Program-made: the position numbers and the translations under genes | In this document: piece after piece, positions 40,724 to 49,285 of the stretch | Numbering within the stretch: position 1 is the stretch's first letter | Layout of the letters: each line of letters begins with the position of its first letter | Notes under the pieces: model-generated | Told to the model about the DNA's origin: nothing | Database searches by the model: none | What the model saw: only the letters and a program-made list of their open reading frames with translations | Origin: Candidatus Saccharimonadota bacterium | GTDB lineage: Bacteria; Patescibacteriota; Saccharimonadia; Saccharimonadales; Saccharimonadaceae | Direction: 5' to 3' | DNA: 64,000 bases | NCBI GenBank assembly: GCA_016866755.1 | Contig: VGLK01000001.1 | Location: 124,001 to 188,000, forward strand

Positions 40724-40729
40724 TTGTAT

Positions 40730-41677
40730 ATGATATTAGGCATAGACGAAGTTGGGCGTGGGCCGTGGGCGGGGCCGTTGGTAATTGGTGCGGTTGTTTT
40801 GGGCAGCACTGAGATTGATGGGCTAACGGATAGTAAAAAGCTGTCTATGAAACGACGAGAGCTGTTGTGTGATGAAATTTATAGTAAAGCATCTGCCGTA
40901 GGCTTGGGATGGGTTTCAGCAGCAGAAATTGATGAGATTGGTTTAAGCACCAGTCTCGCTTTGGCTACTCGGCGAGCGGTTGAACAAATAACACAGCCGT
41001 ATCATGAAATTATTATTGACGGTACGATTAACTTTTTGCGTGACACAGCTAAAGGTCCGTACGTTACGACGCTTAAAAAGGCTGACCTACTTATTCCAAG
41101 CGTAAGTGCCGCCTCGATAGTAGCAAAGGTGGCGCGCGATAGATACATGGCGGAACAGGGTAAACTGTATCCAGAATACGGTTTTGATGCCCATGTTGGC
41201 TATGGCACGGCTGCGCACCGAGCTGCCATAGAAATGTATGGTGTAACGCCGCTACATAGGCTTAGCTTTGCGCCTTTGCAAAAGTATAGAACTTCAAGCA
41301 AAAGCGAGCCTGTTTCTGGCAAAGATACTTATTGGCACACTACAGAAGCTGGGCAGCGCGGTGAGGCGGCGGTTGTCTCTTTTCTTGAGATAAGCGGACA
41401 TACAATTTTAGCAAAAAATTGGAAAACCAAGTACTGTGAAATTGATATTATTTCGCGACTAGAGTCGACCATATATTTTACGGAAGTAAAATATCGTCGA
41501 ACACATAAACAGGGCGATGGATTGGCGGCAATTACACCAAGTAAAGTACGCCAAATGAAATTTGCTACTACGGTGTATATGCAGCGCTACGGATTGAATG
41601 CTAGCAATTTACGTCTTGCGGTTGCAAGTGTAACGGGTGAAAATTATGCGGTTGAAACGTGGTTTGCGCTCGACTAG
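40730..41677 (+). CDS. rnhB: Ribonuclease HII fused to a YraN/UPF0102 nuclease-like domain
   Basis: The first 190 residues are RNase HII, which removes ribonucleotides and RNA primers from DNA. Its acidic residues are Asp6-Glu7 (GIDEVGRG), Asp97 (IIIDG) and Asp119 (KKADLLIPSVSAASIVAKV). A short linker leads to a YraN domain (about 200-315) with the endonuclease-like pattern GQRGE (Glu212), CEIDII (Asp239) and FTEVKYRR (Glu252, Lys254). In many bacteria rnhB and yraN are neighbours; here they form one chain of 315 residues without stop or frameshift. The stop shares CTAG with the convergent tsaC. Confidence 0.92.
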   Translation: MILGIDEVGRGPWAGPLVIGAVVLGSTEIDGLTDSKKLSMKRRELLCDEIYSKASAVGLGWVSAAEIDEIGLSTSLALATRRAVEQITQPYHEIIIDGTINFLRDTAKGPYVTTLKKADLLIPSVSAASIVAKVARDRYMAEQGKLYPEYGFDAHVGYGTAAHRAAIEMYGVTPLHRLSFAPLQKYRTSSKSEPVSGKDTYWHTTEAGQRGEAAVVSFLEISGHTILAKNWKTKYCEIDIISRLESTIYFTEVKYRRTHKQGDGLAAITPSKVRQMKFATTVYMQRYGLNASNLRLAVASVTGENYAVETWFALD

Positions 41678-44786: not shown

Positions 44787-45503
44787 ATGTGGGGGCGAAA
44801 AAACTATAGAAAACGTCGTTTAATTGGGTTGATATTATTTGTTGCGGCTGGTGCGCTGCTTGCAGGTACGAACTATGGTGGTGTTGAGGATATAGCGCAA
44901 AATAATTCAGCACCAAAAGTACAAGAGACTACAGATACATCGAGATTAGCACGCTCGGCGCTTAATGAGTTGCCCGCAAAAGGTAGAGCTGCGAAAACTG
45001 GATATAACCGTGAGAACTTTTCTGATGGATGGGGTGAGCTGGCAGGCTGCGGTATGCGTGATGTGATTTTAAATCGTGATTTGCGTGACGTGCAGATAAA
45101 TATAGAATGCCAAGTGGTGAGCGGTGTGCTCAATGATCCGTATACAGGCAAGCAAATTGTATTTAAGCGCGGACCGGAAAGTAGCCAGATGGTACAAATT
45201 GATCACGTGGTGGCGCTTTCTAATGCTTGGCAAACTGGGGCGCAGCAACTGCCGCAGGTTCGGCGTTATGCGTTCTCTAACGATCCGCTTAATCTACTTG
45301 CAGTAGATGGCGAAACCAATAATCAAAAGGGTTCCAGCGACGCTGCCTCGTGGTTGCCGCCGCATAAGCCATTTCGCTGTCAATATGTTGCTCGGCAGAT
45401 TGCTGTAAAACAACGCTACAATTTATGGGTTACTCCAGCTGAAAAGCAAGCAATGGAAAAAGTGTTATCGCAACCCGAATGTAGCAACCAAACATTGCCA
45501 TAA
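44787..45503 (+). CDS. Exported HNH-family endonuclease (DUF1524-like)
   Basis: A 238-residue protein with a basic N-terminus and one membrane segment (about 11-28), then an extracytoplasmic domain. The HNH core is MVQIDHVVALSNAWQTGA (His140 and Asp139), NDPLNLLAVDGETNNQKG and the WLPPHKPFRCQYVARQ end. Four cysteines outside the membrane (about 88, 108, 198 and 234) could form two disulfides, supporting export. Related secreted HNH proteins degrade external DNA, so roles in nucleotide scavenging or DNA uptake are plausible. The promoter is leaderless and overlaps that of the aminopeptidase gene. Confidence 0.82.
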   Translation: MWGRKNYRKRRLIGLILFVAAGALLAGTNYGGVEDIAQNNSAPKVQETTDTSRLARSALNELPAKGRAAKTGYNRENFSDGWGELAGCGMRDVILNRDLRDVQINIECQVVSGVLNDPYTGKQIVFKRGPESSQMVQIDHVVALSNAWQTGAQQLPQVRRYAFSNDPLNLLAVDGETNNQKGSSDAASWLPPHKPFRCQYVARQIAVKQRYNLWVTPAEKQAMEKVLSQPECSNQTLP

Positions 45504-45515
45504 TATGAATAAATC

Positions 45516-45544
45516 TTGCTTAAATACACTAGGGAGGGTATAGT
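45516..45544 (+). promoter_or_regulatory. nusA promoter
   Basis: TTGCTT (45516-45521), a 17-base spacer and TATAGT (45539-45544) make a standard sigma-70-type promoter. Transcription should begin at about 45551. Confidence 0.7.
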
Positions 45545-45551
45545 AAAAGAA

Positions 45552-45581
45552 GTAGCCGGCCCCAAAGGGTCGGACTTTTTT
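45552..45581 (+). terminator. intrinsic terminator in the nusA leader (candidate attenuator)
   Basis: CCGGCCC (45556-45562) pairs with GGGTCGG (45567-45573, one G-U pair) around the loop CAAA, and TTTTTT follows at 45576-45581. It lies between the promoter at 45516-45544 and the SD AAGGAAC of nusA, so every transcript from that promoter must pass it. It could also serve as the end of the upstream HNH transcript. Confidence 0.7.
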
Positions 45582-45599
45582 ATAAGAAAGGAACTTTAT

Positions 45600-46727
45600 A
45601 TGGAAGATTTGAACATTAAACAACTTACACTTGCTGTACGTACAATTGCTGAAGAGAAAAACTTGCCAGAAGAAACAGTAATGTCGGTAATTGAACAGGC
45701 AATTGCCGCTGCTTGGCGCCGCGACAACGGTGAGCGCGAGCAAGAGGTTCGCGCAAAACTAAATGTAAACGACGGCACGGCAGAAGTATATGTTGCACGC
45801 GAAGTGGTGGAAGATCCGCTGAACGACGCAATTGAGCTAGGGGTTGATGAGGCTCGTACGCTAAAAGCTGATGCTGAAATTGGTGATATTATTGAGGAGA
45901 AATTTGAGGTTACTCAGTTTGGTCGCGTGGCTGCGCAAACTGCAAAACAAGTAGTCTTGCAACGTCTTCGCGAGGCTGAGCGTGAAGTTGTGCTGGCGGA
46001 GTTTGAGGATAAAATTGGTACGGTTATAACTGGTGTGGTGCAGCGGGTTGATCCGCGAGTGGTACGCGTAGAAATTGGTAAAGCTACCGGTATTCTGCCA
46101 CAGAGTGAGCAAATTCAGGGTGAATACTACTCAATTGGTAGCCGAATTAAAGTATTGATTAAAGATATTGAGCGCGAAAATCGTGGACCACAACTTATTT
46201 TAAGCCGCGGTAGCGAATACTTTGTGGAATACCTCTTTCGCCAAGAAGTTCCAGAAATGGAAACTGGTGCAGTAGAAATTAAGTCGATTGCTCGAGAAGC
46301 TGGTCGTCGCACTAAATTAGCAGTTCATTCGGCACTGCCTGGTGTCGATCCGGTTGGTACTTTTGTGGGCGGCCACGGAACACGTGTACAATCGGTAATG
46401 AACGAAATTGGTGACCAAGAAAAAATTGACATCGTAACATATAGCGACAACCCAAGCGACTTTATTATTAATGCCATGAGTCCGGCTGATGTAATTAGAG
46501 TTGAAGTTGACGAGACGGCGAAGCGCGCAAAAGTTATCGTAAGCGAAGACCAGCAGTCGATAGCGATTGGACGAGCCGGACAAAACGTGCGTCTTGCAAG
46601 CCGCTTAACCGGTTACGAACTCGATATTGAAACTGGGTCATCAACCCCAGAACCAACCAAAGAAACGCCAAAAAAGAACGTTGAAGATAGTTTATTCTCT
46701 GCGCTTAATGAATCCGACGAGCAGTAG
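45600..46727 (+). CDS. nusA: Transcription termination/antitermination factor NusA
   Basis: RNA polymerase-binding factor that affects pausing, termination and antitermination. ATG 45600 has SD AAGGAAC nine bases upstream; the longer frame from 45516 starts before the leader terminator. Residues 1-125 are the N-terminal polymerase-binding domain, about 130-200 the S1 domain (GTVITGVVQRVDPRVV), then KH1 (VGTFVGGHGTRVQSVMNEI) and KH2 (QQSIAIGRAGQNVRLASRLTG in parts). It ends soon after KH2 with a short Pro/Glu/Lys tail and has no C-terminal acidic repeats. Length (375) fits the short NusA form. Confidence 0.95.
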   Translation: MEDLNIKQLTLAVRTIAEEKNLPEETVMSVIEQAIAAAWRRDNGEREQEVRAKLNVNDGTAEVYVAREVVEDPLNDAIELGVDEARTLKADAEIGDIIEEKFEVTQFGRVAAQTAKQVVLQRLREAEREVVLAEFEDKIGTVITGVVQRVDPRVVRVEIGKATGILPQSEQIQGEYYSIGSRIKVLIKDIERENRGPQLILSRGSEYFVEYLFRQEVPEMETGAVEIKSIAREAGRRTKLAVHSALPGVDPVGTFVGGHGTRVQSVMNEIGDQEKIDIVTYSDNPSDFIINAMSPADVIRVEVDETAKRAKVIVSEDQQSIAIGRAGQNVRLASRLTGYELDIETGSSTPEPTKETPKKNVEDSLFSALNESDEQ

Positions 46728-46748: not shown

Positions 46749-46775
46749 TTAGCACTCTTTACTAAGGAGTGCTAA
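46749..46775 (+). promoter_or_regulatory. CIRCE operator (HrcA binding site) upstream of clpC
   Basis: TTAGCACTC - nine bases - GAGTGCTAA is a perfect match to the CIRCE consensus. It overlaps the expected -35 (46758-46763) of a promoter whose -10 is TATTCT at 46781-46786, so bound HrcA would block polymerase until heat stress. hrcA itself is not in the window. Confidence 0.93.
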
Positions 46776-46819: not shown

Positions 46820-49285
46820 ATGCCAGAGGATTTTCAAGAGTTTGCACCACGACTTACCGACAATGCACGAGTAAGTTTGCAGCATGCTGAAGCAATTGCA
46901 CGCTCAAGCGGCAGTGCGTATATTGGCACAGAGCATGTATTGCTCGGTGTACTCGCGCAAGGTTCATCTGTTGCGGCAAAATTTTTAGCCGACATTGGTA
47001 TTACACTTGATAGAGCCGAGCTTGCGCTTAATCTAACGCCACGTTCTCTTGTGGTAAGTACGGGATCTAAGGGTTTGTCTGAAACTGCTAAGCTTACGCT
47101 ACGTATGAGCTGGGAGCTTGCAAAAGAGTTTCAGCAAGATTACTTGGGTACGGAACACATATTGTATAGTATTTTGGTACAAAAAAATGCGCGTGCTACG
47201 GTACTGTTAAAAGATATGAGTGTAGATATTGATGAATTAAAAGGAGACATTGAACAGTTTTTTGATCGCCAGCGCAGTGAAATTGAAGCTGATATGCAAG
47301 AACCGAGTACCCAGCGACGTAAACGTAGCGGAGTACTTGCTGCATTTAGTGTTGATTTAACCGAAAAAGCCCGCGCCCAACAACTCGATCCGGTGATTGG
47401 ACGCGATGAGCAGATTGAACGAATAATTTCGGTACTAAGTAGGCGTACAAAAAACAATCCAGTGCTTTTAGGCGACCCTGGCGTAGGAAAGACGGCTGTC
47501 GTAGAAGGCTTAGCTCAGCGAATTGTAGCTGAAGACGTGCCCGATCATCTGCTTGATGTTCGGCTGCTAGAGCTTGATTTAACGGCAATGATTGCCGGAA
47601 CAAAATATCGCGGTGAATTTGAAGAGCGACTCAAAAAAGTAATTGATGAAGTCCAGCAGTCTCCGCATACAGTATTATTTATTGATGAAATTCATAGTCT
47701 TATGGGGGCTGGTGCCGCCGAGGGGGCTTTAGATGCGGCAAATATTCTTAAGCCAGCTTTAGCAAGGGGCGAGATTCGTGTGATTGGCGCGACGACACAA
47801 GATGAATATCGTAAATCTATAGAAAAAGACGCAGCTTTAGAGCGTCGCTTTCAAGTGGTGCGCGTTCCCGAACCTTCAAAAGAACTAACAGTGCGAATTA
47901 TCAAAGGCTTGCGCCTCCATTACGAAGATTACCATAGGGTTACCTTTGACGACGAGGCGATTGAACTCGCGGTTCATTTAGCCGATAAATATATTGCTGA
48001 TCGGTTTATGCCCGACAAGGCACTTGACGTAATTGACGAGGCTGCCGCGCTACTTAGGGTGAAATCTGGTCGACGACCAAGTAGAGAGCGTGATTTAAAA
48101 AAGCAGCTTTTACATCTTGAGGCGAAAATGAATGAAGCTGTAACGGCTGAAGATTATGAGCGGGCGGCGCTATATAAAATGCGCATGAGTCGTTTGCAAG
48201 AGAAACTCGACGAGGCTACACATACAAATAAGCAACCGGTGCCGCTTACACTCGATGAGCCAGCGATTGCGAGAGCCATTACTATAATGACCGGTATACC
48301 ACTTGATAGAATAAAGAAAGATGAAGCACGACAATTGCTGCGGCTTGAAAAAACTTTGGCTTCACACATTATTGGTCAGGAGGAGGCGGTAGCTCAGGTA
48401 GCAAAAGCGTTACGTCGTAACCGAAGTGGAGTTTCTGATGAGAAGCGACCAATTGGCTCGTTTATTTTTATGGGTCCAACGGGTGTTGGGAAAACACAGC
48501 TTGCAAAAGTTCTCGCACGAGAAGTGTTCGGTGATGAGAATAGTCTTATCAAAATAGACATGAGTGAGTTTAGCGAAAAGCATACCGCGGCTCGGTTGGT
48601 AGGAGCGCCCGCAGGATATGTTGGGTATGAAGATGGTGGTAAATTAACCGAAGCAGTGCGACGAAAACCGTATAGCGTACTGCTATTTGATGAGGTTGAA
48701 AAAGCGCACCGAGATATATTTAATATTTTGCTGCAAATTTTAGAGGATGGCACGCTAACAGATGCAAAAGGTCGTACGGTAAAATTTAATAACACCATTA
48801 TTATTCTTACGAGTAATTTGGGTGCCGAACGAATGCAAAAAGAAGCGTCGCTAGGGTTCGAGGCGTCAACGCGTGACGAAAAGCAGGCTGTGGAAGCGTT
48901 ACATGTGCAGAATGCTCGCCATGCGCGTGAAGCGCTAGAGAAAATGATGAGACCTGAGCTGATTAATCGGTTTGATTCAGTTGTTACATTTCATAGCCTA
49001 TCGAGGCGTCAGGTTTCGCGCGTGCTTACGATTTTACTAAACGAATTGCAGAGTAGACTTGCTCGTCAAGGGGTTCGCCTAGTGCTAACGCCGGGGGCGC
49101 GAAAAGTACTCATTACTCGTGGTTACGACAGAAAATATGGTGCGCGGCACATGCGCCAGGTTCTGCAAGATTCGTTAGAGCATTTAGTCGCAGAAGCATT
49201 GCTTAGTGGTACACTAGAGACAGGGACAGTTGCAACTATTTCGGCGAAAAAGGGTGAACTACAGCTACATGAAACACGAGAATAG
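46820..49285 (+). CDS. clpC: ATP-dependent Clp protease ATPase subunit, ClpC type
   Basis: AAA+ unfoldase that feeds proteins to ClpP or refolds aggregates. ATG 46820 follows SD GGGGGAA; the longer frame from 46769 starts inside the operator. The Clp_N repeats take up about 1-150. AAA-1 has Walker A GDPGVGKT (about 218) and [12 protein letters not shown]. The middle region holds a UVR-like coiled coil ([21 protein letters not shown] in parts), which favours ClpC over ClpB. AAA-2 has Walker A GPTGVGKT (about 552) and [11 protein letters not shown]. Length (821) is typical. The perfect CIRCE element marks it as a heat-shock gene. Confidence 0.95.

Follow-up and report, generated by a model that had tools for sequence, protein, structure and literature searches.

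Why does a predicted intrinsic terminator stand between the predicted promoter and the start codon of nusA in the DNA analysed here, a 64,000-nucleotide stretch (the window) of an 848-kb Saccharimonadota genome? The preliminary description of the site had reported a promoter, a hairpin, a T-tract, a Shine-Dalgarno sequence and an ATG ahead of nusA, and a check of the sequence bears out each of these elements, position for position (Table 1). The gene product is identified as NusA by a curated profile (TIGR01953, 366.9 bits against a cut-off of 253.4), and a protein search places its nusA relatives in the Saccharibacteria. Specifically, the hairpin lies 11 nt past the −10 box and 26 nt ahead of nusA, and purine-rich sites like AAAGGA were seen, without being counted, in the nusA leaders of relatives. 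A frame open from the TTG at 45516 through the hairpin and on into nusA was considered as an N-terminal extension of NusA and dropped, the distance from hairpin to ATG varying freely among relatives. The product of the HNH-type gene upstream has a hydrophobic N-terminal stretch besides its GmrSD_C domain and is possibly a secreted nuclease.

Table 1. Features of the nusA locus in the window and the basis of each assignment
Feature	Coordinates	Strand	Basis and remarks
HNH-type gene with GmrSD_C domain	44787–45503	+	Domain match; upstream neighbour of nusA
Predicted nusA promoter, TTGCTT-17-TATAGT	45516–45544 (−35, 45516–45521; −10, 45539–45544)	+	Sequence; start expected near 45551
GTAG, in the place of the GTAC/GTAG block usual before the hairpin, near the expected transcript 5′ end	45552–45555	+	Comparison with relatives
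Predicted attenuator hairpin, CCGGCCC-CAAA-GGGTCGG	45556–45573	+	Folding and comparison; 7 pairs, 6 of them G-C
Six-T T-tract of the predicted intrinsic terminator	45576–45581	+	Sequence and comparison
Shine-Dalgarno-like AAAGGA of nusA	45587–45592	+	Sequence
nusA (375 aa)	45600–46727	+	TIGR01953; ATG at 45600; no rimP before, no infB after

Taken alone, the window makes a weak to modest case. The −35 hexamer matches TTGACA at 3 of 6 positions, with the result that the promoter is absent from the matches of a consensus scan, and 13.9% of shuffled upstream regions attain its promoter score of 8/12. A 3.5-kb region yields three terminator-like sites, compared with 3.7 in shuffles, and the fold z-score is −2.2.

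We therefore rely on comparison with 81 nusA loci (the window and 80 named relatives), which were picked by NusA protein search and not by hairpin. All 81 have the G+C-rich hairpin leading directly into a T-tract that is expected of an intrinsic terminator. In particular, a CGGCC-loop-GGTCG hairpin with a T-tract lies within 300 nt upstream of nusA in every locus, a T-rich stretch (at least four T in 9 nt) follows the hairpin in every locus, and the longest T-run after it is at least 4 in 80 loci and at least 5 in 73. The mean identity between loci is 97.2% for the 12 core stem bases and 34.8%, near saturation, for fourfold-degenerate nusA sites. The hairpin loop comprises 4 nt in 75 of the 81 loci (range, 4 to 6 nt), and a terminal CA is likewise present in 75. 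The consensus leader comprises a −10 box, about 7 nt, (A)GTACATT, CCGGCC-GGCA-GGTCGG, an A, the T-tract, a purine-rich site and the ATG; GTAC or GTAG is present within 22 nt ahead of the hairpin in 71 of the 81 loci, and in 38 of those 71 it lies 7 nt past the −10 box. The window hairpin is a diverged copy, with letters that it has in common with one relative, L070.

In a class-level sample of 43 genomes, the exact motif is present in 33, and some hairpin with a T-tract lies within 170 nt of nusA in 42; L165 has none within that distance before nusA. The best-scoring hairpin of the class scan is not adjacent to nusA in nine rows (L107, L108, L115, L118, L120, L121, L129, L130 and L169) and lies further upstream; the CGGCC..GGTCG motif is additionally present in seven of these nine. 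The preliminary description had proposed, as a check, that a hairpin and U-tract should be kept before nusA in related genomes, and the 81 loci and the class sample confirm this very strongly.

Promoter-like sites, called by consensus only, were scored at the 79 loci with enough upstream sequence. The two-hexamer score is at least 9/12 in 59 of the 79 loci, compared with 4.2% of shuffles, and at least 10/12 in 34, compared with 0.6% of shuffles, while a −10 box with at least 5/6 matches ends 13–15 nt before the hairpin in 48, compared with 2.6% of shuffles. The commonest distance from −10 box to hairpin is 14 nt (35 of the 81 loci); a distance of 22 nt (11 loci) is found mostly in a variant group, in which the AGTACATTGCATTTCG-like block is longer. 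The predicted terminator is thus positioned between the predicted promoter and the start codon of nusA, as in an attenuator. Furthermore, the gap between hairpin and ATG is shorter than 36 nt in 54 of the 81 loci, including the window, which is too small for a promoter, so that transcription into nusA would have to cross the terminator there. Because the hairpin is present in every locus and promoter scores of at least 9 are this much more frequent than in shuffles, the comparison with relatives lifts the case far above chance. The original observation is correct, and the case is stronger than had been stated.

The element is also specific to nusA. A covariance model (R1) matches 29 of 41 relatives, always with a single match per genome, and all 20 matches that were fetched stand directly before nusA. 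Several of the 12 genomes with no R1 match still have a hairpin of diverged sequence before nusA; nusA itself was not found in 3 of the 41 Saccharibacteria genomes. In the window's own genome, the nusA site alone gives a low E-value; two more matches, considered as extra copies, were taken as chance (E 5.4 and 9.3). Among 356 ORF ends of the same loci we found 120 gene-end terminators, none of which contains the hairpin motif. The median length is 18 nt for the nusA hairpin and 31 nt for the gene-end terminators of −8 kcal/mol or lower, and the respective median energies are −11.6 and −14.45 kcal/mol. Comparison thus establishes a predicted promoter–hairpin–T-tract module that is conserved and dedicated to nusA. 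The exact hairpin pattern also occurs in two viral contigs that resemble each other, on the minus strand in both (L336:4994–5015 and L337:2112–2133), and no nusA match was found on either; these occurrences may reflect chance or a borrowed element.

Two alignments, which overlap in that some genomes are in both (e.g. L011 and L105), were used to examine the stem. Alignment A1 comprises 76 of the 81 loci, leaving out L015 and L033 (cut off just upstream) and L050, L065 and L068 (near-copies); alignment A2 comprises the window and 37 of the 43 class genomes, leaving out L117, L120, L129, L165, L167 and L171, which have no alignable motif. Across the 75 distinct rows of A1, pairing holds in 99.2% of cells. 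The outermost pair is U-A in 60 rows, G-C in 10, C-G in 1 and unpaired in 4; the second pair is C-G in 65, U-G in 6 and U-A in 4; and the five inner pairs, including one G-U, are invariant. In the 36 distinct rows of A2, the inner G-U is replaced by A-U in two and by G-C in one and is unpaired in one, and the outer pairs covary too, the outermost being unpaired in 6 rows; slid controls for A2 have at most 52.4% of cells paired. Both alignments surpass alignment-shuffle controls for paired cells, double-change cells and covariation score, but neither for how many pairs show a double change nor for how many pair types occur. From the aligned leaders, an RNA helix is well supported, and the core stem letters are evidently held by something beyond pairing.

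A similar layout extends across the Patescibacteria. We surveyed 128 of 129 more distant genomes with a nusA match (G160, a weak match, was left out), using a hairpin criterion of −7 kcal/mol or lower with a T-tract. As controls we used 46 of 60 recA/secA loci, having dropped 7 recA loci because their frame was ambiguous and a further 7, from secA, in which the match starts inside the protein; five fetched recA control loci belong to the window's own order. A hairpin lies within 150 nt of nusA in 90 of the 128 leaders, compared with 7 of the 46 controls (Fisher p = 7e-11) and 48 of 384 shuffles, and within 75 nt of the start in 73 of the 128, compared with 2 of the 46. Just upstream of 33 of those 73 near hairpins there is a promoter score of at least 10, compared with 1.4% of shuffles. 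In 38 of the 128 leaders no hairpin was detected within 150 nt at the threshold used. The hairpin sequence differs between lineages: a GTGRG..CYCAC stem is present in 17 of the 73 near hairpins and 0 of 48 shuffle hairpins, and GGG..CCC arms in 11 of the 73 and 5 of the 48. The GTGRG..CYCAC stems only recall the GGGc..gCCC of the rimP leader. Different hairpins thus occupy the same layout across the phylum, indicating that the anatomy outlasts the sequence. One nusA leader (L227:213–326) matches the leader model of ribosomal protein L20 (L20_leader), though below the gathering threshold (31.7 bits, E 0.0044, gathering threshold 58.7).

On these comparisons, the element is probably a minimal transcription attenuator of nusA, most probably one that serves negative feedback by NusA. 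nusA would be transcribed from its own promoter, the start lying a few bases short of the hairpin, and RNA polymerase would reach a weak intrinsic terminator about 25–30 nt after the start, releasing a transcript of about 30 nt; any transcript entering nusA would have to read through this terminator. NusA would stabilise the hairpin as it sits in the RNA exit channel and thereby increase termination, such that abundant NusA would silence its own gene and scarce NusA would let it be transcribed. Because there is no space 5′ of the hairpin for an antiterminator, a leader peptide or a riboswitch aptamer, control would have to act via the polymerase or the hairpin itself. We infer that NusA is the natural candidate effector; NusG or another factor is possible. 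Several points count against this reading: the window's own promoter is weak by consensus; the 38 leaders of other lineages and L165 in the window's own class show no hairpin; the near-invariant stem and CA-ending loop exceed the needs of a plain terminator; and the S1-KH part of NusA may find too little upstream RNA to hold on a transcript of about 30 nt. A bolder proposal, which we advance tentatively and regard as rather doubtful, is that the near-invariant stem and NNCA loop near the 5′ end form a sequence-specific sensor read by NusA and RNA polymerase together, perhaps the smallest protein-sensing attenuator. Such a sensor would have persisted beside nusA in much of the Patescibacteria after rimP had gone, its stem changing between classes as NusA changed.

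The preliminary description had allowed that the hairpin might serve only to end transcripts of the HNH gene upstream; on this rival reading, the terminator of that GmrSD_C-like gene would insulate nusA. An HNH gene is indeed the nearest upstream ORF, on the same strand, in 38 of 79 loci including the window, where the gap is 52 nt. In 18 of the 79 loci, however, the nearest upstream ORF (at least 140 aa) is divergent, and 9 of the 10 divergent genes tested have Pfam domains (peptidase M1, aldolase, TGT, QueA-type and DnaJ among them), so that the hairpin is not merely the terminator of an upstream gene. The hairpin stays with nusA where the neighbour gene differs, it is preceded by a promoter-like site, and its motif is foreign to the gene-end terminators of the same loci. 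Together with the 54 loci that have no room for a downstream promoter, the divergent neighbours refute termination of the HNH gene as the sole role in the family, and we regard it as very improbable here, although the hairpin in the window may still end HNH transcripts. A DNA operator for a repressor, hairpin-like by coincidence, would fit letters that hardly vary around the expected start, but we give this next to no credence in view of the compensatory changes in the outer pairs, the replacement of G-U by A-U and G-C in distant relatives, the loops of varying length, the T-tract, and the unrelated hairpins of other classes.

The remaining alternatives accept the hairpin in the RNA and differ in what it does there. 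An mRNA is known to be stabilised by a hairpin placed within a few bases of its 5′ end, and no antiterminator is visible; the element could accordingly protect the mRNA 5′ end, or act as a constitutive terminator that tunes nusA down, in either case with no feedback. A stabiliser needs no T-tract, however, and the T-rich stretch is present in all 81 loci and, with unrelated hairpins, phylum-wide; we put the chance of this explanation as slim. An attenuator that answers to NusG, nucleotide supply, transcription rate or an unknown stem-reading protein would fit stem and loop letters conserved beyond pairing, and PMC8060035 describes NusG as an intrinsic termination factor of B. subtilis. We consider a signal other than NusA unlikely, since the element is tied to nusA alone, with one copy per matching genome, and since NusA negative feedback is reported for other bacteria in PMC12288461 and PMC2965389.

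Patescibacteria have tiny genomes and, to our knowledge, little is known about their gene regulation; the nusA leader would be a regulatory element predictable phylum-wide from sequence. In addition, the near-invariant stem offers a compact system for studying hairpin recognition by NusA at the RNA exit channel. Two other features of the window were noted. Downstream of nusA, the repeat TTAGCACTC-N9-GAGTGCTAA at 46749–46775, which the terminator scan lists as a hairpin, precedes a clpC-like gene at 46820. We take it to be a CIRCE operator, which suggests that HrcA controls Clp in this lineage. A single open frame at 40724–41677 encodes RNase HII followed by UPF0102 (YraN-like) domains and is apparently a gene fusion.

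A search for the RimP_N domain, in which 10 of 14 named controls were positive and which a very diverged RimP could escape, found it in none of 41 Saccharibacteria genomes and none of 145 Patescibacteria genomes; infB of the window's own genome lies on a separate contig (G000:C2). In this Patescibacterial lineage, the predicted attenuator thus accompanies nusA and not the rest of the classical operon. With RimP_N in none of the 145 genomes, there is little reason to see RimP as the signal. No match to the Rfam rimP-leader model was found in the window, in L008 or in 20 leaders of other classes (E up to 1), and Rfam searches near the site, in the window and relatives, gave chance-level matches only. 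We found no prior description of a Patescibacterial nusA attenuator in the literature searched.

Among known systems, E. coli nusA-infB belongs to a larger operon with a longer leader and is not known as a minimal promoter–hairpin arrangement. For B. subtilis, the primary paper on NusA autoregulation is reportedly Mondal 2016. PMC12288461 describes B. subtilis NusA as autoregulated via NusA-stimulated termination in its own 5′ leader; as there, a predicted terminator lies between the predicted promoter and nusA in our loci, with negative feedback in B. subtilis and a presumed NusA dependence here. PMC2965389 (Naville and Gautheret 2010) cites autoregulation of E. coli nusA-infB, in which NusA represses its own operon, and its survey finds the gene behind the rimP leader to be the one most often regulated by attenuation. 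As described there, the rimP leader is a terminator with conserved stem letters and a T-tract, 4–130 nt before the gene, whose general form, in most species, has no visible antiterminator; NusA is proposed as the best candidate effector, with RimP as the alternative. The Saccharibacterial element shares with it a short hairpin, a conserved stem, a T-tract, and nusA or the nusA operon downstream. On the same description, the rimP leader precedes rimP-nusA-infB and has the stem GGGc..gCCC, whereas the Saccharibacterial hairpin directly precedes a solitary nusA, with rimP undetected, and has the stem CCGGCC..GGTCGG, in the window as in its relatives. Furthermore, unlike the rimP leader, it lies a few bases past the expected start, in a leader of about 50 nt, compared with about 180 nt for the B. 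subtilis rimP transcripts in PMC2965389. The 2010 description left the choice between RimP and NusA undecided, and the lineage provides a natural deletion experiment: the apparent lack of RimP removes the main alternative effector, and an attenuator kept with no detectable RimP points to NusA as the signal. The element would thus be a form of the attenuation known for the nusA operon, here on a solitary nusA that has its own conserved stem and no detected rimP.
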